A DNA stretch of 64,000 nucleotides from Gammaproteobacteria bacterium (GTDB taxonomy: Bacteria; Pseudomonadota; Gammaproteobacteria; Pseudomonadales; Halieaceae): the NCBI GenBank assembly GCA_030428835.1, contig JAUIEP010000003.1, positions 1-64,000 of the forward strand, written 5' to 3'. The notes beneath the pieces are model-generated. The model did not search any database, was not told where the DNA came from, and worked only from the letters and a program-made list of their open reading frames with translations. The number at the start of each line of letters is the position of its first letter. Position 1 is the stretch's first letter. A program made the translations under genes and the position numbers. Below, piece by piece: positions 11,978 to 51,011 of this stretch.

Positions 11978-11983
11978 CTTCGC

Positions 11984-12322: not shown

Positions 12323-12352
12323 GAACGAAGGCATTCTTAGCGCTCGATGGAA

Positions 12353-29432: not shown

Positions 29433-29629
29433 AACAAGCTCCTTCTTTTATAAGCCCTGGATGGGGTGTGCTGGACGCACGTATGGGCGATAGCAATGAA
29501 GTGTAGACAAGTTTTCAATAGTCACACGAAATTTGCGCGCCGACCAGCTACCGCTAGACAGCAAGCGTAAACCCATGGTACTTGTGTTGGATATCCGACC
29601 GACACGAACTGGCACTGCACTGGCACTAC

Positions 29630-30364
29630 ATGACTGGCCCGGTTGAGTCACTGCGCCGCCTCGGGCGCGAACTGCGGCGCCGCGGCGTGACGCGCGCCTG
29701 CGTCGTCTACATCATCGCCTGCTGGGTGGTCCTGCAGGTCAGCGATATCGTGTTCAACTCACTCGAGGCGGACATGACCCTCGTCTCCCGGGGCCTGCTG
29801 GCGGCGGCCCTGCTGGGACTGCCGGTGGTGATCGCCATTTCCTGGTTCTACCAGTTTTCCGCCACGGGCGTACGCCGCACTACACCTTTCACGGAGCAGC
29901 GCGTGCTCGACAACATCGCCATGCTCGACGACCGCCGCAAGGATGCACCAAAGCGGGGCCTCCCGGCCCGCCACGCGGCGACCTACGACTGGGTACTGGA
30001 AGTCGACTCGGGGCCGCTGTCGGGCAAGCGCTACGGCGTGGAGGAAGATGTCATCGTGGGTCGCTCTTCCGGTTGCGAACTGACGATTCCGGTGGCGCAT
30101 ATATCGCGCCGCCATCTGCGCTTTCGCATCGACGACGACGGCCTGCTGCTCGAAGATCTCGGTTCGTCCAACGGCACGCTGTTAAACGGCCGTCAAATTG
30201 CCGGGCCAACCCTGTTACACCATCATGACGTGGTGGAAATTCCCAACGTGAAAATTCGCGTCCTTGAGAACCTGGCACGCGCGCGCAACACCGACGCGAC
30301 CACCCAACACACGTTGCAACTCGCGGCGGAGCGCAATCCCCATAAAGTCCCGCCAGAAACTTGA
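29630..30364 (+). CDS. Membrane-anchored FHA domain protein
   Basis: N-terminal two-TM module RRRGVTRACVVYIIACWVVLQVSDIVFNSLEAD...; FHA core VGRSSGCELTIPVAHISRRHLRFRIDDDGLLLEDLGSSNGTLLNGR. Confidence 0.9.
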   Translation: MTGPVESLRRLGRELRRRGVTRACVVYIIACWVVLQVSDIVFNSLEADMTLVSRGLLAAALLGLPVVIAISWFYQFSATGVRRTTPFTEQRVLDNIAMLDDRRKDAPKRGLPARHAATYDWVLEVDSGPLSGKRYGVEEDVIVGRSSGCELTIPVAHISRRHLRFRIDDDGLLLEDLGSSNGTLLNGRQIAGPTLLHHHDVVEIPNVKIRVLENLARARNTDATTQHTLQLAAERNPHKVPPET

Positions 30365-30472: not shown

Positions 30473-32968
30473 TTGGCTGAGAGCTACCACATCGCCATTA
30501 TTGGCGCTGGTCCGGCTGGGCTGAGTGCAGCCGGAAGAGCGGCCCACCACGACAAGGAGTCCGGGGCAAGCAATCCCACCTACGTCCTCCTTGAAGGTTT
30601 CTCGACCTTCGCGAAAACGATCCAGAAGTACCAGAAGGGCAAGCATGTCATGGACACGCCCGGCTTCCTGGACCTGCGCAGCCCCGTACCGTTCGTGGCC
30701 GGCACGCGGGAGGCCATCCTCGACGGCTGGCAGAACAGCATCGACACCGACGGCATCAACATCCGCTACAACAGCGAGGTGACCGCGATCGAGGGGGAGC
30801 GCGGCAACTTTTCCATCAAGACCTCGAGCGGCGAGACGATCAGCGCCGAGCACGTGATCATGTCGATCGGCACCCAGGGCAACCCGCGGACGCTCGGGGT
30901 TCCAGGTGATGCTGAATCTGACTTTGTGCTCTATACCCTTGATGATCCTGAAGAATTCCAAAAGGAGACCATCGTTGTCGTGGGCGCGGGCGACGCCGCG
31001 ATCGAAAACGCCATCGCGCTGGCCGAGTACAACAAGGTGTATATCGTCAACCGGCGCAACGAATTCAGCCGGGCGAAGGACGGCAACCTGAACGCGGTAC
31101 TCGCGGCCATCAACGACAAGAGCCGCGACTTCCACTGTTTCTACGAGACCAATATCGGCGGCCTGGAACTGCCGGACGCACCCGGCGCCGCCGGGGCCAT
31201 CATCCTGAACACGGCCACCGGCGAGGAGCGGGTGGAGTGCCACCGCATCATCGCCCGGCTGGGCACCCTGCCGCCGCGCAAGTTCGTGGAGTCCTGCGGC
31301 ATCGAGATCTCCAGCCCCAGCGCCGACGCGGTACCGGACGTCGACAACGAGTACATGAGCAACGTGCCGGGTCTCTACGTCATCGGCGCGCTCGGCGGCT
31401 ACCCGCTCATCAAGCAGGCGATGAACCAGGGTTATGACGTCGTCGAGTACATCCACGGCAACCACGTGGAGCCCGTGGACACGCCCATCCTGAAGAAGAA
31501 GTTCCAGGGCCTGCCGATCAAGATGCCCACCCCGGAAGAGGTTCTGAGCCTCTACCAGTCCAAGATCCCGATGTTCCGCCGCATGAACCCGCTCGCCTTC
31601 CGCGAGTTGATTATCGAGAGCCGCATCCTCGTCGGCCTCGAGCCGGGGGAGTTCGACCGGACCCCCGCGGACGACGACGAACACGCCACGGTTTTCATCA
31701 AGGACGGCGAGCCGGTGTACCAGCACGGCGAGTACTCCACCTCCTTCTATACCCTCGTGGAGGGCGAGGTGCGCATGCAGCTCGACGAGGACGGGGCCTG
31801 GCACGACATCAAGCCCGGGCAGTTCTTCGGCGAGATGAGCCTGATCTCCGGGCGCCCGCGCCAGGGCAGCGCCATCGCCGAACGCGACTGCATCCTGATC
31901 GAGACGCCGCGGCGTATCATGGTCAAGCTGATGAACTCCAACGAGGAGGTGCGCGCCGGCATCGACCGCGTCTTCATCATCCGCGCGCTGCAGTCGGCTT
32001 TCAAACCGAACCTGTCCCTGGCCGAGATGGCGGAGATCGCCGACAACGTCGAGTCCTGCCAGTTCAAGCCGGGCGAGGCGATCTTCCGCGAGGGCGAAGA
32101 AGGCGACGCGCTGCACCTGATCCGCTCGGGCACGGTGACACTCTCCCGCGGCAAGGAACAACTCGTGGTCGCCAAGCGCCACTCCGGCGAAATCGTCGGC
32201 CAGATGGCGCTGATGGGCTCACCCATGCGCCGCGACACCGCGACCGCCGCCGTCCGCGCCGAAACGCTCAAGGTGCGCCGCCCCGAATTCCTGAAGATGG
32301 CCAACAGCCAGCCCGATACGGTGGAGAAGCTCCAGGACGGCCTGAGCACCCTGCTGCGCCAGACCAACTCCATGGCGTCCCAGCCCGAATCCTCCCGCGC
32401 CATCGGCTTCCTGATGGACCAGGGCCTGGGCGAGGCGACCAACGCGCTGGTGATCGACGAGGCGCTCTGCGTCGGCTGCGACAACTGCGAGAAGGCCTGC
32501 GCCGAAACACACGGCGGCATCTCCCGCCTGCGCCGGGAGGAAGGCGCGTCGTTCGCGTCCCTGCACGTGCCCATCGTGTGCCGCCACTGCGAGCTGCCGC
32601 ACTGCATGAAAGACTGCCCGCCCGACGCCCTGCGCCGCTCGCCGACCGGCGAGGTCTTTATCTCGGACACCTGCATCGGCTGCGGCAACTGCGAGACGAA
32701 CTGTCCCTACGACGCCATCAAGCTGAGCTACCAGCCCAAGCCCAAGCCCTCCCTCTTCTCCTGGCTGTTCTTTGGCCGCGGCTCGGGACCGGGAGAGCCC
32801 GACAGCTTCACGCCGACTGATGCCTCCAAGAATTCCGGCAAGAAGGCCGTCAAGTGCGACGCCTGCATGAACCTGGCCGGCGGCCCGGCGTGCGTGCGCG
32901 CCTGCCCCACGGGCGCGGCGGTCAGGCTGGGCCCGGAACAGTTCATTGAACTGGTGGAGGCGCGCTGA
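30473..32968 (+). CDS. FAD/NAD(P) oxidoreductase fused to two cyclic-nucleotide-binding domains and a multi-[4Fe-4S] domain
   Basis: TTG start; HIAIIGAGPAGLSAAGRAA; VVVGAGDAAIENAIAL; cNMP-like GEYSTSFYTLVEGEVRM...GQFFGEMSLISGRPRQGSAIA and FKPGEAIFREGEEGDALHLIRSG; CVGCDNCEKAC, CRHCELPHCMKDCPP, CIGCGNCETNCP, CDACMNLAGGPACVRACP. Confidence 0.92.
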   Translation: MAESYHIAIIGAGPAGLSAAGRAAHHDKESGASNPTYVLLEGFSTFAKTIQKYQKGKHVMDTPGFLDLRSPVPFVAGTREAILDGWQNSIDTDGINIRYNSEVTAIEGERGNFSIKTSSGETISAEHVIMSIGTQGNPRTLGVPGDAESDFVLYTLDDPEEFQKETIVVVGAGDAAIENAIALAEYNKVYIVNRRNEFSRAKDGNLNAVLAAINDKSRDFHCFYETNIGGLELPDAPGAAGAIILNTATGEERVECHRIIARLGTLPPRKFVESCGIEISSPSADAVPDVDNEYMSNVPGLYVIGALGGYPLIKQAMNQGYDVVEYIHGNHVEPVDTPILKKKFQGLPIKMPTPEEVLSLYQSKIPMFRRMNPLAFRELIIESRILVGLEPGEFDRTPADDDEHATVFIKDGEPVYQHGEYSTSFYTLVEGEVRMQLDEDGAWHDIKPGQFFGEMSLISGRPRQGSAIAERDCILIETPRRIMVKLMNSNEEVRAGIDRVFIIRALQSAFKPNLSLAEMAEIADNVESCQFKPGEAIFREGEEGDALHLIRSGTVTLSRGKEQLVVAKRHSGEIVGQMALMGSPMRRDTATAAVRAETLKVRRPEFLKMANSQPDTVEKLQDGLSTLLRQTNSMASQPESSRAIGFLMDQGLGEATNALVIDEALCVGCDNCEKACAETHGGISRLRREEGASFASLHVPIVCRHCELPHCMKDCPPDALRRSPTGEVFISDTCIGCGNCETNCPYDAIKLSYQPKPKPSLFSWLFFGRGSGPGEPDSFTPTDASKNSGKKAVKCDACMNLAGGPACVRACPTGAAVRLGPEQFIELVEAR

Positions 32969-32970: not shown

Positions 32971-33843
32971 ATGCATGAGAGCCTTCTCAGCTGGCAGCGT
33001 TTCCGCTACCTCTATATCGCACTCGCGCTCGCGGGCGCCAGCATCGTCCTCTATATCACCCAGAGCGGCAACACCGCGCAGCCGCCCAACGGCGGCACCT
33101 GGCAGGGCTATACGCTGGGCACCGTCGGCGCCCTGCTGATCCTGTGGCTCAGCCTGCTCGGCATCCGCAAGCGCCAGTACAGTTCCAATGTCGGCTCGGT
33201 GCAAAGCTGGGCGTCGGCCCACGTCTACCTCGGTATCGCACTGCTCGTGGTCGCCACGCTGCACTGCGCCGCCCAGTTCGGCTGGAACGTGCACACACTC
33301 GCCTATGTGCTCATGTGCCTGGTCATCGGCACCGGCATCTACGGTCTCTACGTCTACCTGCACCTGCCCCGCGCCATGGCGCGCAACCACGCCGGCCGCG
33401 ACGTGAACAGCTGGATGAAGGAGCTGGGCGACGTGGACGACGGGATCCGCGACGCCGCGGGCAATGTCGACGCCGACCTGCAGGCAATGGTGTTGTCGGC
33501 GCTCGATCTCACCCGGCTGGGTGGCGGCGTCTTCGCGCAAATATTTGCACAGGACCGCTGCCGCGTGCAGACCGGCAGCGGCGTCATCTCCAACCAGGGC
33601 CAGCAGGCCCTGATCGACGAATTGTCCAGGCGCATACCCGACGCGCGCGTCGTCCGCGAGGCCGAGACGCTGAACGAGCTGATGGCGCTCTTCGGGCGGC
33701 GGCAGGTCATCCTGAACCTGCTGCGCAAGGACGTGCAGTACCGGGCGCTGCTCAAGATCTGGCTGTACTTCCACGTGCCACTGACCATGGCCCTGCTGGT
33801 GGCCCTGACCATTCACATCATCGTTGTCTTCCTCTACTGGTAG
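32971..33843 (+). CDS. Cytochrome-b-like multi-TM membrane protein
   Basis: About 4-5 TM helices with His in membrane segments (SAHVYLGIALLVVATLHCAAQFGW, LYFHVPLTMALLVALTIHIIVVFLYW). Confidence 0.65.
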   Translation: MHESLLSWQRFRYLYIALALAGASIVLYITQSGNTAQPPNGGTWQGYTLGTVGALLILWLSLLGIRKRQYSSNVGSVQSWASAHVYLGIALLVVATLHCAAQFGWNVHTLAYVLMCLVIGTGIYGLYVYLHLPRAMARNHAGRDVNSWMKELGDVDDGIRDAAGNVDADLQAMVLSALDLTRLGGGVFAQIFAQDRCRVQTGSGVISNQGQQALIDELSRRIPDARVVREAETLNELMALFGRRQVILNLLRKDVQYRALLKIWLYFHVPLTMALLVALTIHIIVVFLYW

Positions 33844-33847
33844 CGCC

Positions 33848-35581
33848 GTGCATTATCTGATCAGAACTCTCACAGGTCGCGGCCGGGACACAGCTCTCGA
33901 GACGGAATACTCCGCAGACCAGCTCACACTGGGCAGCGGCGAGAAGGACACGGTGCAGTTGCCGGGCCTGGCCGGACAGCTCCGCTTCAGCCCGACCGGC
34001 GACGGCGGCGCCAGTTTCTCGGCGAAGGGCATCAAGGCCACGATCGGCGGCGACAGCACCGCCAAGGCCAAACTGGCGGTCGGCGACCAGCTCCAGGTGC
34101 CCGGCTACGCGCTGGAAGTCATCGCGGCGCCGACCGGCTTCGATTTCGGGCTGCAGATCCAGTCCGAGGGCGTCAGCTACGCGGACAGCATGGAGGTCAG
34201 CGAACGGCTGTGGAGTATGCGGCGCTCGAGCTGGTTGCTTGCACTCCTGGTCCTCGTGCTGTGCTTCCTTATCCCCGTCGGGGTCCTGTTCTCCCCCGAC
34301 GTGGCGCAGACATTGCGCGACGCGCCACTGCCGGACGACGGCATGTGGTCCAGCGGCCCGCTGGTCAGCGCGCACTCCACGGCGGGCATCGCCGAGGACT
34401 GCCAGTCCTGCCATACCACACCGTTTGTGATGGTGAAGGACCAGGCCTGCCTGACCTGCCACCGCGACATCCAGGAACACGTGGACATCGGCATACACGG
34501 GGCGGAGGATTTCGCCGACGTACGTTGCGCCACGTGTCACCGCGAGCACAATGAGCCCACGACCATGGTGCGCATGGACAACGGCCTGTGCGTCGATTGC
34601 CACGCCGAGCCGGCCGACTTCCCGAAGGCCGAGGGCATGGCCGAGGCGCACAACTTCACGGCCGATGAGCACCCCGAATTCCGCATCGACCTGCTGGTGC
34701 CGAAAGGTCGCGGCGGTTCGATGAGCTGGGTCTACGAACCGCGTCGACTGAACGAGCCGGGTCTGGCCGAACAGTCCGGTCTCAAGTTCAACCACGACGT
34801 GCACCTGAACCCGGCCAAGGTGAAGAACCTGCAGACCGACGAGGCGCTGGACTGCGCCGCCTGCCACCAGCTGGAGGCGGACGACGAGCACTTCGCGCCC
34901 ATCACCATGGACGGCGAGTGCCGCAGTTGCCACGAGCTGGTCTTCGACAAGTTCGATCCCAAGCGTGAACTGCCGCACGGTAATACCGAGGCCGCGCTCG
35001 TGGCCATGGAGGCGCACTACATTCGCCAGTTCACCGACCCTGACCTGCGTGCCAAGCGCTCCGGCGGAGACAATGACGCCCGCTCGAGCCGCCGCAAGCC
35101 CGGCAGCAAGCCGAACGAGGGCGTGACCTGTAACGGCACTCCCTTCGAGTGCGGCCGCCAGGAGACCGAGCGCCAGGCCGGCGTCCAGTTCAGCAAGACA
35201 GGCTGCGTGACCTGCCACAACGTGGTCGATTCCATGAGCGACAACCTGCTCGACCGCTACTACGTGCAGCCCGTGCGGATCACGGGCGACTGGTATACCG
35301 GCAACCGATTCGATCACCGCGCCCACATGGCCTTCCAGGGCGAAAACCAGGATGAAGTCTGCATGAGCTGCCACGAGGTCATGACCTCGGGCCATGCCGA
35401 AGACATCCTGATTCCCGGCCGCGACAACTGCCTGGAGTGTCACGACGACAACCTGGGCGACACCACCGTTTACTGCGTCAGTTGCCACGCGTTCCACCTG
35501 CCCGCGGGCACCATGGCTACCGAAAGCCGGAACGTCGGCCTGATGCACCAAAACCCGCGCGAGAGCACTGAGGGAGAATAA
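33848..35581 (+). CDS. Decaheme c-type cytochrome with N-terminal FHA-like cytoplasmic domain and single TM
   Basis: GTG start (TTG at 33824 also possible); N-term beta-rich VHYLIRTLTGRGRDTALETEYSADQLTLGSGEKDTVQLPG; TM LLALLVLVLCFLIPVGVLF; ten CXXCH (CQSCH, CLTCH, CATCH, CVDCH, CAACH, CRSCH, CVTCH, CMSCH, CLECH, CVSCH). Confidence 0.85.
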   Translation: MHYLIRTLTGRGRDTALETEYSADQLTLGSGEKDTVQLPGLAGQLRFSPTGDGGASFSAKGIKATIGGDSTAKAKLAVGDQLQVPGYALEVIAAPTGFDFGLQIQSEGVSYADSMEVSERLWSMRRSSWLLALLVLVLCFLIPVGVLFSPDVAQTLRDAPLPDDGMWSSGPLVSAHSTAGIAEDCQSCHTTPFVMVKDQACLTCHRDIQEHVDIGIHGAEDFADVRCATCHREHNEPTTMVRMDNGLCVDCHAEPADFPKAEGMAEAHNFTADEHPEFRIDLLVPKGRGGSMSWVYEPRRLNEPGLAEQSGLKFNHDVHLNPAKVKNLQTDEALDCAACHQLEADDEHFAPITMDGECRSCHELVFDKFDPKRELPHGNTEAALVAMEAHYIRQFTDPDLRAKRSGGDNDARSSRRKPGSKPNEGVTCNGTPFECGRQETERQAGVQFSKTGCVTCHNVVDSMSDNLLDRYYVQPVRITGDWYTGNRFDHRAHMAFQGENQDEVCMSCHEVMTSGHAEDILIPGRDNCLECHDDNLGDTTVYCVSCHAFHLPAGTMATESRNVGLMHQNPRESTEGE

Positions 35582-35584: not shown

Positions 35585-37750
35585 ATGAAATGGCGTGCAC
35601 TATTGCTCAGCGGAGTTCTCGTCCTCGGCGCCTGCGGCGGCGGAGGGGGCGGCGGACCCGGCCTGGGCTCCTCCCCCGGCAACGACGATACGGGTAAATC
35701 GTGCGACGGTTTCTGCGCGGACGCCGGGGCACCCATCCGCCTGACGGTGGCGGACGTCAAGCAGATCCTGGCCCAGGCGCTGCACCAATCCACCGCACTG
35801 GAGGGCGCCGAGAAAACCACCATCGCGGTCGTGGACCGGGTCGGCAATGTGCTGGCAGTTCACCAGAAAGGCGGCGGCCAGACCCTGCGCATCACGACGG
35901 ACGACCCGAATCAGGTCAAGGCGGCGCTCGATGGCCTGACGATTCCCGCCGATTTCAGCCCGGACACGCTGGCCGCGATCGCCAAGGCCATTACGGGCGC
36001 CTACCTGTCCAGCGAGGGCAATGCATTCACCACCCGCACCGCCAACCAGATCGTGCAGGAACACTTCAACCCGGGCGAGCGCAACCAGCCGAGCGGCCCG
36101 CTGTTCGGCGTGCAGTTCAGCCAGCTCGCCTGCTCCGACTTTATGATGGCATCGCCCGAGCCGGGCACGAGCGTCGGTCCGCAGCGTTCGCCGCTGGGCA
36201 TGTCCGCGGATCCGGGCGGCCTGCCGCTGTACAAGAACGGCACTGTGGTCGGCGGCATCGGTGTCATCTCGGACGGCCTGTACGGCATCGACAAGAACAT
36301 TCTCAACAACGACCGCGACAACGATGAGATGATAGCGGTAGCGGGTACCTTCGGGTTTGCCGCTCCCAAGCCGCGACGCGCGGATCGCATCACGGTTGAG
36401 GGCAAGACCTTCCGCTACGCCGACGTCGACTTCGAGAATCTCCCGGTGTCGCCGGAAGATGCGCCGGCCTATGACTCACTCGGCGCAGAGATGGGAATGC
36501 TGCGCGCGGTAAACGGCTACACAGACGGAGCGATCGTCGCGGGCACGGCATTTACCACCCCGGAATCCGGCGTGCGCGCGGTGCAGGCGGGCGACTACCC
36601 ACCGGCCGACGTCGCGGACTTCCAGGCGCTGCAGGCGTTTACCTTCGTCGACGAGAACAACCAGGTGCGTTTCCCCCCGAGGGACGGCATGGACGCGGCC
36701 GAGCTGGCCCAGGCGGGCGGCGCGGCCCCGATTTCCGCCGATGAGGTCACGCAGCTGATGAAAAGCGCCCTCGGCGTCGCGTTGCGGGGTCGCGCGCAGA
36801 TCCGCACGCCGCAGAGCACGCCGATCCGGGTCACAGTTTCCGTCGTCGACTCCCAGGGCAATATCCTCGGCATGATGCGCACCCGCGACGGGCCCATCTT
36901 CGGCTCCGATGTTTCGCTGCAGAAGGCGCGCACCGCCACCTTCTTCTCGTCGAAGGATGCCGCTTCGGTACTGCGCTCCATCGACGACCTGACCTACATC
37001 CCCCTGCTGCAAGCAGACGGCTTTCCCCCACTCGGGCCTGTCCCGGATATCCAGTACCTTGAAATTGACCCCGTGATCGACCCGTCCGGCGTGCCGGTGG
37101 TCCGGCCGTACGGCGATCCCATCCTGGTCAGCGACTACGTGGCGGCGGCCAAGGCCTTCGTCGGCGCGGGCGCGCTGGAGGACGGCACCGCGTTCGCGGA
37201 CCGCTCCGGCGGCAACCTGTCGCGCCCGTTCTTCCCGGACGGCATTCGCAACACTGCCAACGGCCCGTTCAGCAAGCCCTTCGAACTGGCGGAGCCGGGC
37301 CAGGTGCAGTGGAGTGTCTTCTCGTCAGGACTGCAGCTGGACCTGGTCCTCGGGCGCATACTGCAGCACGTGCTGTTTGCACTGGGTGACCCTCGCGTCC
37401 CGGATGTCGGCAGCAACTGCATCGGTCTCGAGCCGGACGCACCCACCAGGATCAATAACGGTATCCAGATCTTCCCGGGCTCCGTCCCCATCTTCCGCGG
37501 CGACCAACTGGTCGGCGGCATCGGCATCTCTGGCGACGGTATCGACCAGGACGACATGATTTCCTTCCTCGGCCTGCACGAGGCGGGGCTCGCCCTGGCT
37601 GACGCCGGCGCGGCGAACCCTATCGGCAACGCACCGAAGGAAATGCGGGCAGACCAGTTGAAGCCCAAGGGCGAGCGCCTGCGCTACGTGCAGTGTCCAC
37701 AAACACCTTATATCGGAAGCAGCGAAAACTTCGTCTGCGACGGCAAATAG
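35585..37750 (+). CDS. Lipoprotein with two GlcG/HbpS-like (DUF336) domains
   Basis: Lipobox LVLGACGGGGGGG; LTVADVKQILAQALHQS...TTIAVVDRVGNVLAVHQ and second ISADEVTQLMKSALGVALRGRAQIRTP...VTVSVVDSQGNILGMMRTRDGPIFGSDVSLQKARTA. Confidence 0.8.
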   Translation: MKWRALLLSGVLVLGACGGGGGGGPGLGSSPGNDDTGKSCDGFCADAGAPIRLTVADVKQILAQALHQSTALEGAEKTTIAVVDRVGNVLAVHQKGGGQTLRITTDDPNQVKAALDGLTIPADFSPDTLAAIAKAITGAYLSSEGNAFTTRTANQIVQEHFNPGERNQPSGPLFGVQFSQLACSDFMMASPEPGTSVGPQRSPLGMSADPGGLPLYKNGTVVGGIGVISDGLYGIDKNILNNDRDNDEMIAVAGTFGFAAPKPRRADRITVEGKTFRYADVDFENLPVSPEDAPAYDSLGAEMGMLRAVNGYTDGAIVAGTAFTTPESGVRAVQAGDYPPADVADFQALQAFTFVDENNQVRFPPRDGMDAAELAQAGGAAPISADEVTQLMKSALGVALRGRAQIRTPQSTPIRVTVSVVDSQGNILGMMRTRDGPIFGSDVSLQKARTATFFSSKDAASVLRSIDDLTYIPLLQADGFPPLGPVPDIQYLEIDPVIDPSGVPVVRPYGDPILVSDYVAAAKAFVGAGALEDGTAFADRSGGNLSRPFFPDGIRNTANGPFSKPFELAEPGQVQWSVFSSGLQLDLVLGRILQHVLFALGDPRVPDVGSNCIGLEPDAPTRINNGIQIFPGSVPIFRGDQLVGGIGISGDGIDQDDMISFLGLHEAGLALADAGAANPIGNAPKEMRADQLKPKGERLRYVQCPQTPYIGSSENFVCDGK

Positions 37751-37766: not shown

Positions 37767-39629
37767 GTGAAAAGAAGCCTACTGTACTGTGCACTGGTCG
37801 CCGGTATTACCGGCGTGGCCAGCCTGTCCACCGCTCCCGTCCTGGCGCAGGATGGCGGAGAGAGCGCCGCGCAGGCGAGCGAGGATCGTCGCGACGCGCG
37901 CCGCCGCCCAGGCCGCAGCAACCGCAACGAGGAGTACTCGCGTGAGATCGTGGACGAAACCGCGCCCGGCGGCATCCGCGAGGAAAAAGTGGAGAAGCGC
38001 ACCGGCGGCGGCCGCTACGTCCTGCCGCGCAAGTACCGCAATACACCGCGCCCGACCGAAGACCACTTTGTGGATTCCATACCGATCCCCGATCGCTGGC
38101 GCATCATGGACAACTTCTACCCGGGCAATATCTGGGACCCCTACAACAACCAGAACGTCCTCAAAGGCGACGTGCCGCTGCACGACGACTGGTTCTTCAA
38201 CGTCATCGCCATCAGCGACACGGTGCTGGAATTCCGCCAGGTACCGACGCCGGTGGGCGTGCAGAGCACGCGCGATGCGGGCGACCTGGATGTACTCGGC
38301 ACGACGGAGCAACTCACGTTCAGCCAGAGCCTCCCGATCGAGTTCGTGTACTACCAGGGCAACACCGTGTTCAAGCCACCGGACTGGGAATTCCGTTTCA
38401 CGCCGGTGTTCAACTACAACTACACCGAGTTGGAGGAAATCACCGGGGTGAACGCCAACCCCGACGATGAGGCACGGCGCCACGACGACCACGTGGGCAT
38501 CCAGACGCTGTTCGTCGACAAGCACCTGCGCAACGTCTCGGATCGCTACGACTTCGACAGTCTGCGGGTGGGCATCCAGCCCTTTTCCAGCGACTTCCGG
38601 GGCTTCCTGTTCCAGGACGTGCCGTTCGGCGTGCGCCTGTTCGGCACGCGCGACAACAACATTTTCCAGTACAACCTCGCCTGGTTCCGGCGCATGGAGA
38701 AGGACACCAACAGCGGCCTGAACGACGTCACGGAAGACCTGCGCGACGACGACGTCTTCATCGCGAACCTGTACTGGCAGGATCTCGGCGTGAAAGGCTT
38801 CTTCTCCCAGGCGACCGTCGCGTACAACCGCAACCGTGAAGACTCGATCTTCTACGACAGCAACAACTTCATCCAGCGACCGGCCTCCATCGGCCAGGAG
38901 CGGCCGCGCACGTACGACGTCTACTACCTGGGCTACAACGGCGACGGGCACTTCGGGCGCCTCAACCTGACCGTGTCCGCGTACCTCGCCCTGGGCGAGG
39001 AGGACAACGGCGTGTTCAACGGGGAGAATTCCGACATCGAGGCGTTCTTCTTCGCCGCCGAGCCGGGTATCGACTTCGACTGGATACGCCTGCGCGGTTC
39101 CTTCCTCTACGGTTCGGGTGACGACGACCCCTATGACAACAAGTCACAGGGCTTCGACGCGATCTTCGAGAACCCGCAGTTCGCGGGTGCCGATACCAGC
39201 TACTGGATTCGCCAGGGCGTGCCGCTCATCGGCGGCGGCCGGGTTGCGCTGCAACAGCGCAACGGCGTGCTCAACTCGCTGGAGTCCTCGAAGGAACACG
39301 GCCAGTCCAACTTCACCAACCCCGGCGTAATCCTGGTCGGCGGCGGCGTGGACCTGGACGTCCTGCCCGAGTTCCGGCTGAGCTTCAACGCCAACTACCT
39401 GGCCTTCGCCGAGACCGAGGTGCTGGAAGTGGCGCGCGCCCAGTCGAACGTCGACGAGGAGATCGGTATCGACCTGTCCGCGGCGATCATCTGGCGGCCG
39501 TTCATGAGCCAGAATGTCGTGGTGCGGCTGTCCTACGCGCAGCTGCTCGCCGGCGACGGCTACGAAGACCTGTACGGCGATGAAGACGATCCCTACTCCA
39601 TCCTGCTCAATACGACCCTGACCTTCTGA
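37767..39629 (+). CDS. Putative large outer-membrane beta-barrel protein
   Basis: Signal peptide MKRSLLYCALVAGITGVASLSTAPVLAQ; repeated amphipathic strands; C-terminal PYSILLNTTLTF ending in Phe. Confidence 0.7.
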   Translation: MKRSLLYCALVAGITGVASLSTAPVLAQDGGESAAQASEDRRDARRRPGRSNRNEEYSREIVDETAPGGIREEKVEKRTGGGRYVLPRKYRNTPRPTEDHFVDSIPIPDRWRIMDNFYPGNIWDPYNNQNVLKGDVPLHDDWFFNVIAISDTVLEFRQVPTPVGVQSTRDAGDLDVLGTTEQLTFSQSLPIEFVYYQGNTVFKPPDWEFRFTPVFNYNYTELEEITGVNANPDDEARRHDDHVGIQTLFVDKHLRNVSDRYDFDSLRVGIQPFSSDFRGFLFQDVPFGVRLFGTRDNNIFQYNLAWFRRMEKDTNSGLNDVTEDLRDDDVFIANLYWQDLGVKGFFSQATVAYNRNREDSIFYDSNNFIQRPASIGQERPRTYDVYYLGYNGDGHFGRLNLTVSAYLALGEEDNGVFNGENSDIEAFFFAAEPGIDFDWIRLRGSFLYGSGDDDPYDNKSQGFDAIFENPQFAGADTSYWIRQGVPLIGGGRVALQQRNGVLNSLESSKEHGQSNFTNPGVILVGGGVDLDVLPEFRLSFNANYLAFAETEVLEVARAQSNVDEEIGIDLSAAIIWRPFMSQNVVVRLSYAQLLAGDGYEDLYGDEDDPYSILLNTTLTF

Positions 39630-39638
39630 GTGACTGCC

Positions 39639-42600
39639 ATGAGAACCTCGACAACAAAGTTCCGTAGCCTCTCTACCATCGGCCGCTTCGCGCTGGCCGC
39701 ACTGGTGGCAGGGTTAGCCTGGGCCGGCCCGGTAAGCGCGGCATCAAAGCTGGTGGCCGTGGAGCGGGATTACATCACCGCGCCGGACGCGCCGCCGAGC
39801 CAGACCGCGGCCGCCGTCGCCGCCAAGTCGGACGGCTGCGAGAGTTGCCATACGTCGACAGACCAGAAGACCATGCACGCCAACCCGGCGGTGAAACTGG
39901 GCTGTACCGACTGCCACGGGGGCAGCGCCGACGTGTTCCGCCCCGACGGTACGTCCAGCCTCAGTGAGGCGCCCTACCTCAAGGCGATGGAAGCGGCCCA
40001 CGTACTGCCGCGCTACCCGGACGCATGGCACTACCCGTCCAGTGCCAACCCCGAGCGCACCTATACCCTGCTCAACAAGGAGAGCCCGGAGTTCGTCAGG
40101 TTCATCAACCCGTCTGACTACCGCATCGCCAGGGAAGCCTGTGGCGCCTGCCACCTGTCTATCATCCAGGCCGCCGAGCGCAGCCTGATGGCCACCTCCG
40201 CCATGCTGTGGGGCGGCGCCGCCTACAACAACGGCATCCTGCCGTTCAAGCGCTACATCCTGGGCGAGGCCTACAACCGCGAGGGCGTCGGCGTCAGCCT
40301 CGTCAACCCGATCGAGCCCACCGAGGAGATGACCAAGGCGGGCATCCTGCCGCAGCTCTACCCGCTGCCGGCCTGGGAGACCATCCATCCCGGCGACATT
40401 TTCCGCGTGTTCGAGCGCGGCGGGCGCAACATCAGCAACGTGTTCCCGGAAACCGGCCTGCCGAACGCGCTGGGCCTGCTGCAGCGCATCGAGGAGCCGG
40501 GCCGGCCCGACTTCCGCCAGTCCAACCGCGGCCCGGGTACGGGTGCGCGCATCGCGGTGCCGGTGATCAACATCACCAAGACCCGCCTGAACGACCCGCA
40601 TACGTGGTTCATGGGCACCAACGACCAGCCCGGTGACTTCCGCCATTCCGGCTGCGCGTCGTGCCACGTGGTCTACGCGAACGACCGCGATCCGCGCCAC
40701 TCCGCCGGCTACAGCCAGTTCGGCCACACCGGCAGGACGCAGACCGCCGACCCGACCATCTCCAGGGAGGAGAAGGGCCACCCGCTGAAGCATGAATTCA
40801 CGCGGGCGATACCGAGCAGCCAGTGCATGTCCTGTCACATGCACCAGCCGAACATGTTCATCAATACCTACCTCGGCTACACGATGTGGGACTACGAGTC
40901 AGACGCACCGCGCATGTGGCCCGAGAAGCAGTTCTATCCCACGGACGAGGAACGCCACGAGACACTCGAACGCAACCCGGAGGGCGCGTCCCCGCGCGGC
41001 AAGTGGAAGGACATCGAGTTCGTGGAGCAGGTCTCCGAGATGAACGACCAGATGCAGGACACCCAGTTTGCCGACTATCACGGCCACGGCTGGAACTTCC
41101 GCGCGATCTTCAAGCGCGACCGCGTGGGTAACCTGCTCGACGCCGAGGGCAACATCGTCAGCGACGATGATCCCGAGAAGTTCGACAAGGCGGTGCACAT
41201 GTCCTCCATCCACGTGGATGTGGGCATGCACTGCGTGGACTGTCACTTCGCCCAGGACAACCACGGCAACGGCCATATCTACGGTGAAGTCGCGGCCGCG
41301 GTCGAGATCGACTGCAAGGACTGCCACGGCTCCGCCGACGCCTACCCGAACCTGTATACCTCGGGTCCGGCGGCCCTGGAGGGCGGCACCAACCTGGGCG
41401 CGATCCGCAACCCGGACGGCCGCCGCCGTTTCGAGTGGGTGGGCGACAAGCTCATACAGCGCTCCGTGCTGAATCCCGACCTCGAGTGGGAGATGAGCCT
41501 GGTCAAGGACACGGTGACCAAGGGCAATCCGAACTACAACGCGAAAGCGGCCCGCGCCAAGCTCATGAGCAACGACACCGCCAAGCAGGACTGGGGCGCG
41601 AGTGTTGCGAAAGAGGACCGCGCGCACTCGGATGACGACATCGAGTGCTACACCTGCCACACCTCCTGGACCACGAGTTGCGGCGGTTGTCACCTGCCGA
41701 TCGAGGCCAACAACAAGACCGAGCGACACCACTACGAGGGCGGCGAGACGCGCAACTACGCAACCTACAACCCGCAGGTGGCGCGCGACCAGATCTTCAT
41801 GATCGGCCGGCGCGAGGTGGCCAAGGGCGGCAAGATCGCGCCGGTGCGCTCGACCTCCGCGCTGGTGCTGTCGTCGACCAACTCCAACCGCGAGAAGATC
41901 TACGTGCAGCAGCCGCCGATGGCTGCCTCCGGGTACAGCTCGCAGGCCATGAACCCGCACTTCCCGCACACGGCGCGCAAGACCGAGACCCGGGTCTGCG
42001 ACGATTGCCACCTGTCGAAGGAGAAGGACAACAACGCGATCATGGCGCAGACGCTGATGTACGGCACCGACTTCATCGACCTGCTGGGCTACCACGCCTA
42101 CGTGGGCAGCGAGGAGCACATCACGCCGGTGCAGGTCACGGAGTGGCAGGAACCGCAGGCGGTGATCGGCAGTTACCTGCAACGCTACGCCTACCCCGAT
42201 TACTTCGGGGAGCACCAGGCGAACGGCAAGGTGCTGCAGCACGGCTACCCGCACAGCAGCGGCCGGGCCGGCTGCATCCAGCTGCGCGGCGAGTACCTGT
42301 TCGTCGCCGAGGGCGATCGCGGCATGCAGGTCTACGATGCCGCGAGCGTGGCCAACAAGGGCATTTCCCAGCGCGTCATCACGGCGCCCTTCAGCCCGCT
42401 GGGCCACGACACGCGTATCGAAAGCAGCAACGCCACCTGCGTGGCGCTGTCGACGACGCAGCCTGTGGCGCCGAAGCGCTTCGACGACAAGTACGAACTG
42501 ATGGTGGAAACCAACCTCGAACAGCCGTTCCAGGACCACTATCGCTACGCGTACATCACGGACGCCGAGGAAGGCCTCATCCTGACGAACCTGGACACGC

Positions 42601-43385
42601 TGAGTGACGGTGAGCCGCGCAACAACTTCATGGACCGCGCGCTCACGTGGAACGACGGCGGCGTGCTGGACGGGGCGCGGCATATCATCCTCGGCGGTTA
42701 CTACGCCTACATCATCGCCGATGCCGGCCTGGTGGTCGTGAACCTGGAGGATCCCCTGAATCCGGTGCACGAGGCGACGGTGCCGCTGAACAACGGCCAC
42801 TCGGTGGCGCAGCAGTTCCGCTACCTGTTCGTGACCGATGCCGACGGCCTGAAGGCGATCGACATTACCCACCCGACCAGGCCGAAGCTGGTGGCCAACA
42901 ACACCATCGCGCTGGCCCAGGCCGGCCGACTGCACCTGGCGCGCACCTACGCCTACGTGGCGGCGGGCTCCGAGGGCATGGCCATCGTGGACATCACGAA
43001 ACCGGAGAGCATGAAGCTCCACCAGATGTTCAGCGATGGCCTTGTGGACAGCCGGGATGTTACTGTAGCCACCACGAACGCCTCCCTGTTCGCTTACGTG
43101 GCCGACGGCAGGGGTGGCCTGAAGGTGATACAGCTGACCTCGCCGGACAGCCAGCCCAAGTTCTACGGCTTCAGCCCGGAACCGAAGCCGGAACTGATCG
43201 CGAGCTACCCGACCAAGTCGCCGGCGCTGTCGCTGTCGCGCGCCCTGGAGCGGGACCGCGGTGTTGACGAGACCGGCGGGCAGGTCGCGGTATTCGGACG
43301 CGTGGGCTCGCGCCCGCTGAACCTGGAAGAGATGCAGAAGCTCTTCCTCGATGATCAAGGCAAGCCATGGTATGTAGAAAACTAG
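39639..43385 (+). CDS. Decaheme c-type cytochrome fused to C-terminal LVIVD-type beta-propeller repeats
   Basis: Ten CXXCH (CESCH, CTDCH, CGACH, CASCH, CMSCH, CVDCH, CKDCH, CYTCH, CGGCH, CDDCH); repeats YLFVAEGDRGMQVYDAAS, YAYIIADAGLVVVNLEDPLNP, YLFVTDADGLKAIDITHPTRP, YAYVAAGSEGMAIVDITKPES, FAYVADGRGGLKVIQLTSPDS. Confidence 0.88.
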   Translation: MRTSTTKFRSLSTIGRFALAALVAGLAWAGPVSAASKLVAVERDYITAPDAPPSQTAAAVAAKSDGCESCHTSTDQKTMHANPAVKLGCTDCHGGSADVFRPDGTSSLSEAPYLKAMEAAHVLPRYPDAWHYPSSANPERTYTLLNKESPEFVRFINPSDYRIAREACGACHLSIIQAAERSLMATSAMLWGGAAYNNGILPFKRYILGEAYNREGVGVSLVNPIEPTEEMTKAGILPQLYPLPAWETIHPGDIFRVFERGGRNISNVFPETGLPNALGLLQRIEEPGRPDFRQSNRGPGTGARIAVPVINITKTRLNDPHTWFMGTNDQPGDFRHSGCASCHVVYANDRDPRHSAGYSQFGHTGRTQTADPTISREEKGHPLKHEFTRAIPSSQCMSCHMHQPNMFINTYLGYTMWDYESDAPRMWPEKQFYPTDEERHETLERNPEGASPRGKWKDIEFVEQVSEMNDQMQDTQFADYHGHGWNFRAIFKRDRVGNLLDAEGNIVSDDDPEKFDKAVHMSSIHVDVGMHCVDCHFAQDNHGNGHIYGEVAAAVEIDCKDCHGSADAYPNLYTSGPAALEGGTNLGAIRNPDGRRRFEWVGDKLIQRSVLNPDLEWEMSLVKDTVTKGNPNYNAKAARAKLMSNDTAKQDWGASVAKEDRAHSDDDIECYTCHTSWTTSCGGCHLPIEANNKTERHHYEGGETRNYATYNPQVARDQIFMIGRREVAKGGKIAPVRSTSALVLSSTNSNREKIYVQQPPMAASGYSSQAMNPHFPHTARKTETRVCDDCHLSKEKDNNAIMAQTLMYGTDFIDLLGYHAYVGSEEHITPVQVTEWQEPQAVIGSYLQRYAYPDYFGEHQANGKVLQHGYPHSSGRAGCIQLRGEYLFVAEGDRGMQVYDAASVANKGISQRVITAPFSPLGHDTRIESSNATCVALSTTQPVAPKRFDDKYELMVETNLEQPFQDHYRYAYITDAEEGLILTNLDTLSDGEPRNNFMDRALTWNDGGVLDGARHIILGGYYAYIIADAGLVVVNLEDPLNPVHEATVPLNNGHSVAQQFRYLFVTDADGLKAIDITHPTRPKLVANNTIALAQAGRLHLARTYAYVAAGSEGMAIVDITKPESMKLHQMFSDGLVDSRDVTVATTNASLFAYVADGRGGLKVIQLTSPDSQPKFYGFSPEPKPELIASYPTKSPALSLSRALERDRGVDETGGQVAVFGRVGSRPLNLEEMQKLFLDDQGKPWYVEN

Positions 43386-44659
43386 TCGCCGCCTGTTGCG
43401 CACTGCTCCTGACCGGGGCGGTGCAGGCGGCGCCGCTGCCGGACTCCGGGACCAATGTACACGAGGGCGTTGCGAGCTGTTCCAACAGCGTCTGCCACGG
43501 CAAGAAAGCACCCAGCAGCGACGCACCCGTGCTGCTCAACGAGTACACCACCTGGATCGACGAGGACCAGCACTCCCAAGCCTACGCAACGCTGAAGTCG
43601 GAGCAGTCTGTGCGCATCGCGCAGAACCTGGGCCTGCCGAACGCGCACACCGCCGATATCTGCCTGGACTGCCACGCGGACAACGTCCCCAAGGACAAGC
43701 GCGGCGACCGCTTCCACATCAATGAAGGCGTGGGCTGCGAGGCCTGCCACGGCGGCGGCGGGCGCTGGCTGGAGTCCCACGCGGAGAAAGGCACCTCCCA
43801 CGCGGACAACCTCGCCAAGGGCATGTACCCCACCGAACAGCCCATGGAACGGGCCCGGCTGTGCCTCGCCTGTCACCTGGGCACCGAGCGCAAGTTCGCG
43901 ACCCACGAGATCATGGGTGCGGGTCATCCGCGCCTCGCCTTCGAACTGGAGCTGTACACGGTCTTCCAGCCGCGGCACTACGAGACCGACGCGGATTACC
44001 GCAAGCGCAAACCGTTCATCCCCTCGGTCAATATGTGGCTGGCCGGATTGCTGGTCTCCAGCGAGCGCACCCTGGAACTGCTGCAGGAGGACTGGTTCAC
44101 CAAGCGCAGCCTGGTGCCGGAGCTGTCGTTTTTCCAGTGCCACGCCTGCCACCACCCCCTGGATGACCTGCGCTGGCAGCCAGAGGGCGGGGACGCCGCC
44201 CTGCCCCCGGGGTCGGTCAGGCTGAATGACGCCTCGTTGCTCGTGCTGCAGTCGGTGCTCGAGATCCTGGGTAACAACACCGCGGGCGCTATCCGCAAGG
44301 GCATCAACAAACTGCACCAGTCGACCATGCAGGACCGCGCCGCGGTAACCGCTGCCGCGGCGGAAATGGAGAAGCTACTGCCGCCTCTTGAGCAGGCCGT
44401 GATCGACCGGGACTACGGCGTGGAAGACATGAAGAAGCTGCGCGCGGGCATCCTGCAGGCTGCGGCCAAGCAGCGGTATCGCCATTTCACCGCTGCTGAA
44501 CAGGCCTACATGGCCGTGGAAAACCTGTGTATCGAACTGAAGGATGACAAGCGCCTGCAGGCAAACCTCGACGAGTGGTTCGCCATTGTAGAAAAGGAGA
44601 ATGAGTTCAACCCACAGCAGTTCGCCGCCTCTGCCAACAGGTTCCTGGGTGCTTTGTGA
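43367..44659 (+). CDS. Cytochrome c554-like multiheme protein (four CXXCH plus one CX4CH)
   Basis: VASCSNSVCHGKKAPS (CX4CH), CLDCH, CEACH, CLACH, CHACH; signal peptide. Confidence 0.85.
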   Translation: MVCRKLVAACCALLLTGAVQAAPLPDSGTNVHEGVASCSNSVCHGKKAPSSDAPVLLNEYTTWIDEDQHSQAYATLKSEQSVRIAQNLGLPNAHTADICLDCHADNVPKDKRGDRFHINEGVGCEACHGGGGRWLESHAEKGTSHADNLAKGMYPTEQPMERARLCLACHLGTERKFATHEIMGAGHPRLAFELELYTVFQPRHYETDADYRKRKPFIPSVNMWLAGLLVSSERTLELLQEDWFTKRSLVPELSFFQCHACHHPLDDLRWQPEGGDAALPPGSVRLNDASLLVLQSVLEILGNNTAGAIRKGINKLHQSTMQDRAAVTAAAAEMEKLLPPLEQAVIDRDYGVEDMKKLRAGILQAAAKQRYRHFTAAEQAYMAVENLCIELKDDKRLQANLDEWFAIVEKENEFNPQQFAASANRFLGAL

Positions 44660-45642
44660 GCGGGTCTATCGATGCCTCTGATCTCGAAACCAGTGGCTAT
44701 ACGGATGTCGGCAAAAGGAAGCACAACGAAGACGCTTTCCTGATCGACCGGGACCTCGGGCTGTACGTGGTAGCGGACGGCGTGGGCGGACACCATTCCG
44801 GTGAGGTCGCCAGCGCCCTGACCATCGAGGTCATCCAGCGCGAGATCGCCGCCGGCAACGACCTCGACACCGCCATACAGTTGGCCAACCAGGCCGTCAT
44901 CGAGGGCGTGGAGAGCGGCAAGGGCAAAACGGGCATGGCCACTACCGTGGTCGCCGTGAAGCTCGCCGGGACGCGCTTCGAGGTGGCCTGGATCGGTGAC
45001 AGCCGCGCCTACCTGTGGGACGGCAAGCTGACGCTGCTGACCAGGGACCACTCCTTCGTGGAGGCGCAACTGGCGGCGGGCAAGATCACGCTGGAGGAAG
45101 CGCGGGTACATCCCCGGCGCCACGTTATCCTGCAGGCGATCGGCCTGCAGGTTGAGGGTCGACTGAATGTGGGCCACAACAGCGGCGAGCTGGCGGACGG
45201 CAACTGCCTGCTGCTGTGCAGTGACGGTGTCACGGACCCGCTGGACAATGAACAACTGTCTCACCTGCTCGGGCGCGATACACCACTGGAGCAGACCTGC
45301 GACAGCCTCGTGCGGACCGCGCTGCAGTGTGGCGGCAAGGACAACGCCACCGCGATCGCGCTGGCCTACCGCCGGGACGCAGGGACAGACATACAGCCGG
45401 GCACTGCCGACGAGGTGGTCTGGGTCTACAATCCCGAGAGCGGGGAGTACGAAGGGTTGCCGGATGCGACCCCCGAGATCAACCTGGAGGAGACCCAGGT
45501 GATGCGCATTCGCCCCTCCGCGGCCGAACCGACAGAGACGGCGGGCGATGCCCACGAGGGCGGGATCGGCTGGCCTTATATCTGGGGTGTCGCCATTGTC
45601 GGCACCGCACTGGGGCTGGCGCTGGTATACGCCCTGCACTGA
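44656..45642 (+). CDS. PP2C-family Ser/Thr protein phosphatase with C-terminal TM tail
   Basis: GTG start; SGYTDVGKRKHNEDAFLIDRDLGLYVVADGVGGHHSGEVAS, WIGDSRAYLW, SDGVTDPLDNEQL, GGKDNATAI; tail GGIGWPYIWGVAIVGTALGLALVYALH. Confidence 0.93.
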   Translation: MSGSIDASDLETSGYTDVGKRKHNEDAFLIDRDLGLYVVADGVGGHHSGEVASALTIEVIQREIAAGNDLDTAIQLANQAVIEGVESGKGKTGMATTVVAVKLAGTRFEVAWIGDSRAYLWDGKLTLLTRDHSFVEAQLAAGKITLEEARVHPRRHVILQAIGLQVEGRLNVGHNSGELADGNCLLLCSDGVTDPLDNEQLSHLLGRDTPLEQTCDSLVRTALQCGGKDNATAIALAYRRDAGTDIQPGTADEVVWVYNPESGEYEGLPDATPEINLEETQVMRIRPSAAEPTETAGDAHEGGIGWPYIWGVAIVGTALGLALVYALH

Positions 45643-45668
45643 CACGCGGGACAGAGGAAGACGAAGCA

Positions 45669-45767
45669 ATGGCAGACGAACATCAATCCATCGGTTGGCA
45701 GTACATCTGGGGCGTCGCAATCCTGGGTACGACCCTCGGACTGGCCCTCGTCTACGCGCTGCAGTAA
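45669..45767 (+). CDS. 32-aa single-TM micro-ORF, paralogous to the C-terminal tail of the upstream PP2C
   Basis: MADEHQSIGWQYIWGVAILGTTLGLALVYALQ vs GGIGWPYIWGVAIVGTALGLALVYALH; in-frame ATG and TAA between phosphatase and FHA genes. Confidence 0.65.
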   Translation: MADEHQSIGWQYIWGVAILGTTLGLALVYALQ

Positions 45768-45799
45768 CGGCGACAGGCGGAAAATCTGGGAGAAAGCAC

Positions 45800-46903
45800 A
45801 TGGTAGACCAAGACGGCGTCAGCGCCCGGCTGATAGCAAGCGACGGCACGTCCTACGAGTTGTCCGGCGAACAGACCCTCGGCAGGTCGAAGGACGCCGA
45901 CATCACCATCAGTGACCCGAAGATCTCGCGCAACCACGCGCGCTTCAAACTGGACGGCGCACAGCTGACGGTGGAAGACCTCGGCTCGTCCAACGGCACG
46001 CGGGTAAACCAGCGCAAGATCGACGGGCCGGCGACGCTGGCCGACGGGGATACCATCAGCTTCGACACGGTGGACCTGCGCGTCGAACTGATCGGCGCCG
46101 ATGCCGGCAGCGATGGGCCGGAGGAGGCCACGATCATAGGCAGCCTTGACGACGAGGCGACCATGGTCGGCATGGCCGCGGCGGAACCGGCACCGGAGCC
46201 GGCGCCCGCGCCGGAACCCGAACCGGCGCCAGAGCCCGAACCGGCACCCGAACCCGCACCGGAACCTCCCCCTGCACCCACGCCACCGCCGGAGGGCAAG
46301 GTCAGCGCCGCCGCCAAGTCGGGCGCCGAAGCCGTACCGGAGGCGTGGGTCGACGAAGGCACGGGTTCCGAGACCCAGTTCATCACGCCGGAGATGGCAG
46401 CGAAGATCTCCGAGATGGCGGACCTCAATGTCGCCGCGGCCTCGGACCTGCCGCACCTCATCGTGGTCAATGACAACGGCACGCAACAGGTCGTCGAGCT
46501 GGAAACGGGCTCGGACGGCCCGGACGTGTGGGAGATCGGCCGCCAGGACAGCTGCCAGATCGTGCTCAACCAGGTGGGCGTCTCGGGGCGGCACGCGCAA
46601 CTGGTGCACGAGGACGGTCGCTGGCGCATCGTGAACCTCGTCTCCACCAACAGCATCTTCGTGAACGGCGAAAAGCGGCCCAAGGCGTTTCTCTCTGACG
46701 ACGACAAGATCGGACTCGGTGAAGCCAAGCTGGTATTCAAGGCCGGCAAGGGCGGCGGCGCCCCGCGTCCGGCGGCCGCCAAAGCCGCTTCCGGCGGCGG
46801 GCAGGCATCCGCCGGTGGCGGCGGCATGTCGCCCGCGCTGATCGGCGGCATCGTCGGCGCCGTGGTGGTGGTCGCCGCTCTGGCCTACTTCCTGCTGGGC
46901 TGA
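45800..46903 (+). CDS. Double-FHA protein with Pro/Glu linker and C-terminal TM anchor
   Basis: LGRSKDADITISDPKISRNHARF...EDLGSSNGTRVN; IGRQDSCQIVLNQVGVSGRHAQLVHEDGRW...STNSIFVNG; EPAPAPEPEPAPEPEPAPEPAPEPPP; MSPALIGGIVGAVVVVAALAYFLLG. Confidence 0.92.
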   Translation: MVDQDGVSARLIASDGTSYELSGEQTLGRSKDADITISDPKISRNHARFKLDGAQLTVEDLGSSNGTRVNQRKIDGPATLADGDTISFDTVDLRVELIGADAGSDGPEEATIIGSLDDEATMVGMAAAEPAPEPAPAPEPEPAPEPEPAPEPAPEPPPAPTPPPEGKVSAAAKSGAEAVPEAWVDEGTGSETQFITPEMAAKISEMADLNVAAASDLPHLIVVNDNGTQQVVELETGSDGPDVWEIGRQDSCQIVLNQVGVSGRHAQLVHEDGRWRIVNLVSTNSIFVNGEKRPKAFLSDDDKIGLGEAKLVFKAGKGGGAPRPAAAKAASGGGQASAGGGGMSPALIGGIVGAVVVVAALAYFLLG

Positions 46904-47868
46904 TGCCCTTCCCTTCCGGCCGGTGATCCGAGGATCGCCGGCCACTCCCGCAACCAGCAGCAGCGATGATCGTAGCCGTCCAGCGGCACGGTCACGCTGT
47001 GCGGTGGCGCCAACCCCGTGCGCGTGTGATAGGACGCCGCGATGAATGGCGGCACCTGTGCATCGTCGGTACCCACCAGGTGAAGCTGCCGCGTGCGCGC
47101 GGGCCAGTCACCGAGGTCCGCGGGATTGGAAGCCGCCGCCAGCTCCGTGTAGCCGTGGTGTCGCGTCCACGCCGCAGTATCGAGGGGCGACGCGACGGTG
47201 ATGACGCGCTCGACACGGTCGAGCTGCCGCGCCGCCAACACGGCGATCACCCCGCCACCGCTATACCCCACCAGCGTCAGCCGCGCGCGAGGGTAGCGTG
47301 CTGCGATGTCTGCCAGCGCTGCCACGACTGCCGCTACAACCCGCGGGCCGTAGCGCTCCAGCGTCCAGAGCGCCGGCTCGCAGGGCGGCTCCGTCGCGCC
47401 GCCGTAGTAGCAGGGCCGGCCGAGGAATGCGCTGGGCGCCGGGTCGGCGAGTGCCAGTCGCAGCCCGAGGTGTTCACTGCTCGTGGGGTCGCGAGCAATG
47501 CGCCGGCGCGTCGCGAACGCGCGGCCGTCGCCGCCGAGGTAGACATGCAGGTGCGGCGTATCCGCGGGCAGCGGCTCGCTGAACCAGGCCAATGGCAATC
47601 CACCCGCCGGGAGCACGAACTGCGTCCAGCCGGCGTCATTGAGCAGGCGTTGGGCGGAAGCCGGTCCGTGCAGCGCACACCCGGCGCCGAGAAGGAGTGC
47701 GAACAGGGCCGGCAGCGCGGCGATCCGGCAGCGGCACGCGTCTCGCAAGGGTGTGATAATTCCCTGCTTTTTATGGTATTTCCGTACAGGGATCACAGGC
47801 TGGCCGGCTTTATTTATGATGACGATCTGCGGTAGTTGGCCTAGTATATAGCTGCTCGCCAACAACAC
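46885..47868 (-). CDS. Alpha/beta hydrolase-like lipoprotein (start uncertain)
   Basis: LFALLLGAGCALHG lipobox; ARLTLVGYSGGGVIAVLAARQ nucleophile elbow; HLVGTDDAQVPPF. Confidence 0.75.
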   Translation of the reverse strand: MLLASSYILGQLPQIVIINKAGQPVIPVRKYHKKQGIITPLRDACRCRIAALPALFALLLGAGCALHGPASAQRLLNDAGWTQFVLPAGGLPLAWFSEPLPADTPHLHVYLGGDGRAFATRRRIARDPTSSEHLGLRLALADPAPSAFLGRPCYYGGATEPPCEPALWTLERYGPRVVAAVVAALADIAARYPRARLTLVGYSGGGVIAVLAARQLDRVERVITVASPLDTAAWTRHHGYTELAAASNPADLGDWPARTRQLHLVGTDDAQVPPFIAASYHTRTGLAPPHSVTVPLDGYDHRCCWLREWPAILGSPAGREGHQPSRK

Positions 47869-47890
47869 TAACTAATCGAACGGAGTCGTT

Positions 47891-49366: not shown

Positions 49367-49384
49367 CACGCTGCCGGGTACGGC

Positions 49385-50968: not shown

Positions 50969-51011
50969 ACCCGTGCAACGAAAGCGGGTCAAAGTAAAGA
51001 GGAGGCAACCG

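Follow-up and report, generated by a model that had tools for sequence, protein, structure and literature searches.

A porin–cytochrome conduit with a predicted cyclic-nucleotide-sensing reductase at its cytoplasmic end

The closest described systems are the PCC3 and PCC4 porin–cytochrome conduits, and He et al. 2017 (PMC5566968) give the inner-membrane proteins of both two WX3HX13H motifs. There, PCC4 is defined by a five-transmembrane inner-membrane protein with SGXXG, joined in subgroup II by an upstream PF13247 gene, and has three periplasmic multihaem cytochromes of 4, 5 and 10 haems; the PCC3 cytochromes have medians of 21 and 34 haems (PMC5566968). These related conduits are drawn there as electron uptake into the quinone pool. 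The gene cluster described here lies in a 64,000-nucleotide stretch of DNA (the window) and is a relative of the PCC3 and PCC4 conduits.

At the head of the cluster, a single, complete 831-aa ORF with a TTG start (30473..32968, +) encodes a reductase of the layout FAD – cNMP ×2 – 4×[4Fe-4S]. Pfam places Pyr_redox_2/3 at residues 5–320 (E 1e-25 to 1e-28), detects two PF00027 stretches (E 7e-34) and assigns residues 698–815 to several 4Fe-4S families; a profile search of the PDB matches the three parts to three unrelated protein groups. A scan of genome contigs returned at least 583 relatives, the best 80 of which were taken as orthologues; these are full or near-full length, mostly from Gammaproteobacteria, 47–75% identical across ~830 aa, and keep all three domain types. 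Domain content and conservation are directly established, and the orthologues rule out a chance fusion or assembly error. A CRP-type transcription factor was ruled out by the lack of any HTH match in Pfam. Sphingobium plasmids also encode the reductase, and in evenly drawn samples its carriers number 17 among 369 genomes at class level and 15 among 399 at phylum level. The AlphaFold2 model (57 sequences) has a mean pLDDT of 84, with lower values in the FeS region, which was modelled with its cofactors missing. Literature on cyclic-nucleotide domains with multihaem cytochromes, LVIVD, thioredoxin reductase and CHASE2 yielded no description of this protein.

The FAD/NAD(P)H domain (30485..31432, +; residues 5–320; PF07992/PF13738) is TrxR/YpdA/FNR-like and carries two Rossmann motifs, GAGPAG at residues 11–16 and VVGAGDAAIENA at residues 169–180. 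YpdA (7a7b, E 1.8e-29) and TrxR-like ferredoxin–NADP reductases are matched in the PDB profile search, and Foldseek with the reductase model returns 7a7b first, its best matches being YpdA structures. The fold is thus common to these enzymes and the reductase, whereas the FeS and cNMP domains are found only in the latter. Against the family model for YpdA bacillithiol-disulfide reductases the protein scores 92.6 bits, below the cut-off of 339.9. Across residues 1–345 of the orthologue alignment (best 80 of at least 583 relatives), no conserved CxxC or Cys pair is present, and the protein is therefore not a thioredoxin reductase, an identity that we rejected. The strand end past the second Rossmann motif reads VNRRNEF with an invariant Arg, which would be compatible with NADPH as the cofactor.

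The tandem cNMP domains sit between the FAD and FeS parts and match PKG and PKA-R in the PDB profile search (E 3e-39). Domain A (31694..31942, +; residues 408–490; PF00027), with its own PKG/PKA-R matches, contains phosphate-binding cassette A (31823..31879, +; residues 451–469), which reads FFGEMSLISGRPRQGSAIA and holds the Glu and Arg of a canonical cNMP domain: among 81 sequences, which include the best 80 of at least 583 relatives, Glu454 is kept in all 81 and Arg463 in 80. The cassette columns average 87% conservation and the domain in its entirety 63%. Domain B (32057..32374, +; ~residues 529–634) is the second PF00027 stretch and matches a CRP-type model over residues 529–634. Its cassette (32198..32254, +; residues 576–594; GQMALMGSPMRRDTATAAV) carries Gln at position 577, a site normally occupied by Glu, where the 81 sequences have E in 55, Q in 25 and D in 1, while Arg586 is kept in 79. 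Cassette B is canonical in most relatives; in the Q clade, to which the window belongs, the missing Glu marks the second sensor domain as degenerate. The PKA regulatory subunit and PKG likewise pair a canonical first cassette with a second domain, but their tandem controls kinases, whereas that of the reductase lies within a redox enzyme.

The C-terminal ferredoxin domain (32447..32926, +; residues 659–818) is HycB3/DmsB-like, with a HycB3 match in the PDB profile search (E 5e-25) and PF13247 at residues 698–750 (E 4e-9); it misses the NCBIfam equivalog cut-offs, such as that for DmsB. Four groups of four Cys with the spacing typical of DmsB/HycB proteins (666/669/672/676, 703/706/711/715, 734/737/740/744 and 795/798/807/811) would ligate the [4Fe-4S] clusters, and all 16 are invariant in the 81 sequences (best 80 of at least 583 relatives included) except in one truncated sequence. 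AegA-type proteins, whose FeS part the reductase matches, also combine DmsB-like FeS and TrxR-like FAD in one chain; they differ from the reductase in having the FeS part N-terminal and no cNMP domains. A sequence-only reading had proposed a flavin domain, two cNMP domains and a four-cluster ferredoxin in one polypeptide, an architecture with which Pfam and the orthologues agree. Its GAGPAG Rossmann motif is the one located above, its DmsB/HybA-like Cys groups are borne out by the 16 conserved Cys and the HycB3 match, and the arginine it picked out in the first cassette is the near-invariant Arg463.

That reading considered the protein alone; the reductase, one of a family with at least 583 relatives, stands at the head of a porin–cytochrome conduit. 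Two nucleotides separate the reductase stop from the ATG at 32971 of an inner-membrane diheme cytochrome b (32971..33843, +; 290 aa), which carries two WX3HX13H motifs and TGIYG. It is followed by a decaheme c3-type cytochrome with an N-terminal FHA-like domain, a hydrophobic segment and 10 CXXCH (33824..35581, +), an HbpS-like haem-binding putative lipoprotein (35585..37750, +; PF03928), a putative outer-membrane porin (37767..39629, +; weak porin-model match, 54–76% identity in orthologous clusters), a decaheme cytochrome with an LVIVD repeat domain (39630..43385, +; 10 CXXCH) and a cytochrome c554-like multiheme protein (43367..44659, +; 4 CXXCH and 1 long motif). At the loci of the best 80 of at least 583 relatives, where many non-carriers are cut by contig ends, cytochrome b is present in 74, the FHA-c3 decaheme in 69–71, HbpS in 61–62, the porin in 56 and the LVIVD decaheme in 54–57, and most sufficiently long loci keep the five in this order. 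Ten CXXCH are found in 66 of 69 homologues of the FHA-c3 cytochrome, whose N-terminal FHA was recognised in 10 of 17, and in 51 of 54 of the LVIVD cytochrome. The Sphingobium reductase gene has genes for a hypothetical protein and cytochrome c3 behind it, and the opposite strand nearby encodes a multiheme cytochrome, a heme-binding protein and a further cytochrome.

In two genomes of one genus, reductase and cytochrome b form one ORF of 1118–1123 aa (7850–11203 of L094/L145; 3052–6420 of L095/L146), a fusion that is strong evidence of electron passage between the two. Operon and fusion are both observed directly. The cluster is a porin–cytochrome conduit, with the putative cyclic-nucleotide-sensing reductase as its predicted cytoplasmic end. 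The same genes could instead form a reductase-powered redox defence of the periplasm or outer membrane, or serve haem or iron acquisition, independently of extracellular electron transfer. The HbpS-like protein in the operon would suit such a role, as would the resemblance, over a short stretch, of the LVIVD decaheme to ExtM, a cytochrome of a selenite/tellurite operon. We nevertheless consider it quite unlikely: a porin, two decahemes and a diheme cytochrome b make up the standard porin–cytochrome layout, and elsewhere the window genome encodes a PCC3-like cluster whose cytochromes have 21 and 31 haems.

Possible regulators flank the conduit, namely an upstream FHA-domain membrane protein (29582..30364, +), not conserved in orthologous clusters, and a downstream PP2C-type phosphatase and FHA-domain protein (44656..46903, +; PP2C at 2 and FHA2 at 1 of 80 loci). 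Kinase, phosphatase and FHA neighbours other than the FHA-cytochrome are unconserved across loci and were rejected as parts of the system. The region directly downstream of the cytochromes (44656–53714) encodes PP2C, FHA, an autotransporter, a Ser/Thr kinase and a Sel1 protein with a caspase domain (Peptidase C14). Near the reductase lies a gene for NADP-specific glutamate dehydrogenase (28089–29432, −), homologues of which flank the reductase in L015, L027, L047, L048, L054, L055, L066, L092 and L100, several of them gammaproteobacterial and two from other proteobacteria.

Cyclic-nucleotide sensing by the cNMP domains would require carriers to synthesise the nucleotide. All 22 carrier genomes examined encode a nucleotide cyclase (21 class III, 1 class I). 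Relative to random placement, a null that ignores any clustering tendency of signalling genes, class III cyclases lie close to the reductase (within 25 kb) far more often than expected (13 of 22 against 1.16, P ~3e-13; counted once per taxonomic family, 10 of 16 against 1.15, P ~2e-9). This linkage, directly established in relatives, is also seen as a tight operon with partly overlapping genes, in the order CHASE2-cyclase, TPR/Slam-like protein, FecR protein, reductase. It occurs in a second locus set, from the genome-contig scan, at the six gammaproteobacterial loci L045, L049, L050 (where the contig holds just the end of the cyclase), L052, L059 and L080, and also at L147. In L045 the overlapping genes lie at 4832–6973, 6940–8370, 8355–10001 and 9998–12379. 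The cyclases near the reductase in L150, L153, L154 and L160 are of types other than CHASE2. Linked CHASE2-cyclases have the metal Asp pair and the Asn/Arg pair, and their nucleotide-choice residues are Lys and Thr; we take them to be of the adenylate type.

In the window genome there is no cyclase near the reductase locus and no class I cyclase. The single class III cyclase, a response-regulator type on contig C156 (locus L101), has Glu/Gly at the nucleotide-choice positions; as it is both unlinked and of this type, the ligand supply is uncertain here, and the messenger in this genome may be cGMP. The C156 cyclase adjoins a stand-alone cNMP-domain protein with a canonical cassette. Among relatives, a linked cyclase accompanies Glu577→Gln in 0 of 17 cases, against 6 of 32 in the comparison group (P 0.08), a correlation between the substitution and the absence of a linked cyclase that is only suggestive.

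The cNMP domains might alternatively be structural, or sense another ligand, with an ungated reductase serving the conduit. Numerous domains of the CRP/FNR fold do not bind cyclic nucleotides, and both the degenerate cassette B of the window and the lack of a linked cyclase in its genome are in keeping with such a role. We judge it unlikely, given the near-invariant Glu and Arg of cassette A over 81 sequences, the cyclase in all 22 carriers and the CHASE2-cyclases within the reductase operon. Cyclic-nucleotide gating is supported by this comparative evidence as the predicted function. The cAMP/cGMP-gated redox entry point of the sequence-only reading thus gains from the conservation of cassette A and from the cyclases, in all carriers examined and, in several lineages, in the reductase operon; as regards its second sensor, the Glu→Gln change in the window clade counts against it.

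In the reading that we prefer, and hold to be somewhat probable, the reductase is the cytoplasmic electron-input or exchange part of a conduit for extracellular electron transfer and is switched allosterically by a cyclic nucleotide, with cAMP the likeliest ligand. We infer here the ligand, the gating, NAD(P)H as partner and the outward direction. NAD(P)H would reduce the FAD, from which electrons would pass through the four [4Fe-4S] clusters and reach both b haems in the inner-membrane cytochrome at 32971–33843, and onward through the membrane-anchored decaheme (33824) to the porin and LVIVD decaheme at the outer membrane. The cyclase product, from the operon CHASE2-cyclase in several lineages, would bind the tandem cNMP domains between FAD and FeS, and binding would open or close the FAD-to-FeS step.

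Since such conduits are drawn as uptake in He et al. 2017 (PMC5566968), the flow may also be inward, from an extracellular donor through conduit and cytochrome b to FeS and FAD, with NAD(P)+ or quinone reduced and the cNMP domains gating uptake. That source proposes uptake for PCC3 and PCC4, whose inner-membrane protein has the same WX3HX13H pair, and orthologue L010 comes from the MAG Biocath_Gamma_022, presumably of biocathode origin. We find this direction rather unlikely, as flavin domains of this kind that oxidise NAD(P)H usually act as electron donors, and the reduction of NADP+ by haem-derived electrons requires an energy source of which the cluster shows no sign.

A profile search with the cytochrome b returned distant relatives in surroundings of two types, PCC3-like and PCC4-like, an assignment based on haem numbers and gene order rather than on the published sequences. 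As in PCC4, the window protein and every full-length homologue carry both WX3HX13H motifs, with the transmembrane count taken from sequence, and the gene for the PF13247 protein lies directly upstream of cytochrome b, as in subgroup II, where an Fe-S gene adjoins the [ST]GXXG inner-membrane gene and a decaheme is also present. The window cluster differs in its fused N-terminal FAD/NAD(P)H domain and in its haem numbers (10, 10 and 4 + 1 motifs, the first two conserved, rather than 4, 5 and 10). At the PCC4-like loci L133–L136, L140 and L143, an FeS protein gene immediately precedes the inner-membrane gene, and a decaheme gene follows. This FeS protein (~565–630 aa) has the layout cNMP ×2 – FeS, without FAD; Pfam detects 1–3 cNMP stretches, and in the sequences read the first cassette keeps Glu and Arg (e.g. 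LFGEIGALTRFPRSVSV) while the second is degenerate. No mention of these cNMP domains was found in the literature searched, and the Fe-S protein of the published PCC4 clusters probably carries them too. As a linkage control, the cyclase matches listed for eight genomes of the PCC4-like search (6–10 each) are all more than 25 kb from the inner-membrane gene, the nearest being ~34 kb away. The window porin and LVIVD cytochrome have no match in PCC4-like loci (porin BLAST, E 1e-4; barrel porins diverge fast). The window cluster has an inner-membrane module in common with PCC4, alongside a FAD domain, an LVIVD cytochrome and perhaps a porin of its own.

PCC3 resembles the window cluster in its ~290–300-aa inner-membrane protein, its porin and its periplasmic and probably extracellular multihaem cytochromes. 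It differs in a FAD-FeS neighbour that has no cNMP domain and FeS before FAD, and in cytochromes of ~21 and 34 haems, where the window has 10 and 10. The window genome holds a second, PCC3-like conduit (L132, contig C10, 4829–11106 of the locus), with a 281-aa inner-membrane protein bearing two WX3HX13H motifs, cytochromes of 31 and 21 CXXCH, and a divergent, separate 466-aa FeS-FAD protein without cNMP domains.

It is quite possible, if short of probable, that these clusters form a new class of porin–cytochrome conduit in which cAMP (or cGMP) binding to the reductase switches flux within seconds, a dedicated CHASE2-cyclase senses the periplasm, and a PKA-R-like tandem has been recruited, here and in PCC4, as the gate of a redox wire. 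To our knowledge, the known cAMP control of extracellular electron transfer is transcriptional. If correct, our reading would place, beside control at the level of gene expression, a switch that acts post-translationally on electron exchange with the exterior, and with a spread of ~4–5% of sampled Gammaproteobacteria and a similar share across the phylum, Sphingobium included, many bacteria may switch exterior electron flow, in either direction, directly by cAMP or a related messenger. In Shewanella (PMC4417206), where cAMP affects extracellular electron transfer and the Mtr genes are under cAMP-CRP control, the nucleotide acts on transcription, whereas the reductase described here has its putative sensor inside the redox enzyme itself.
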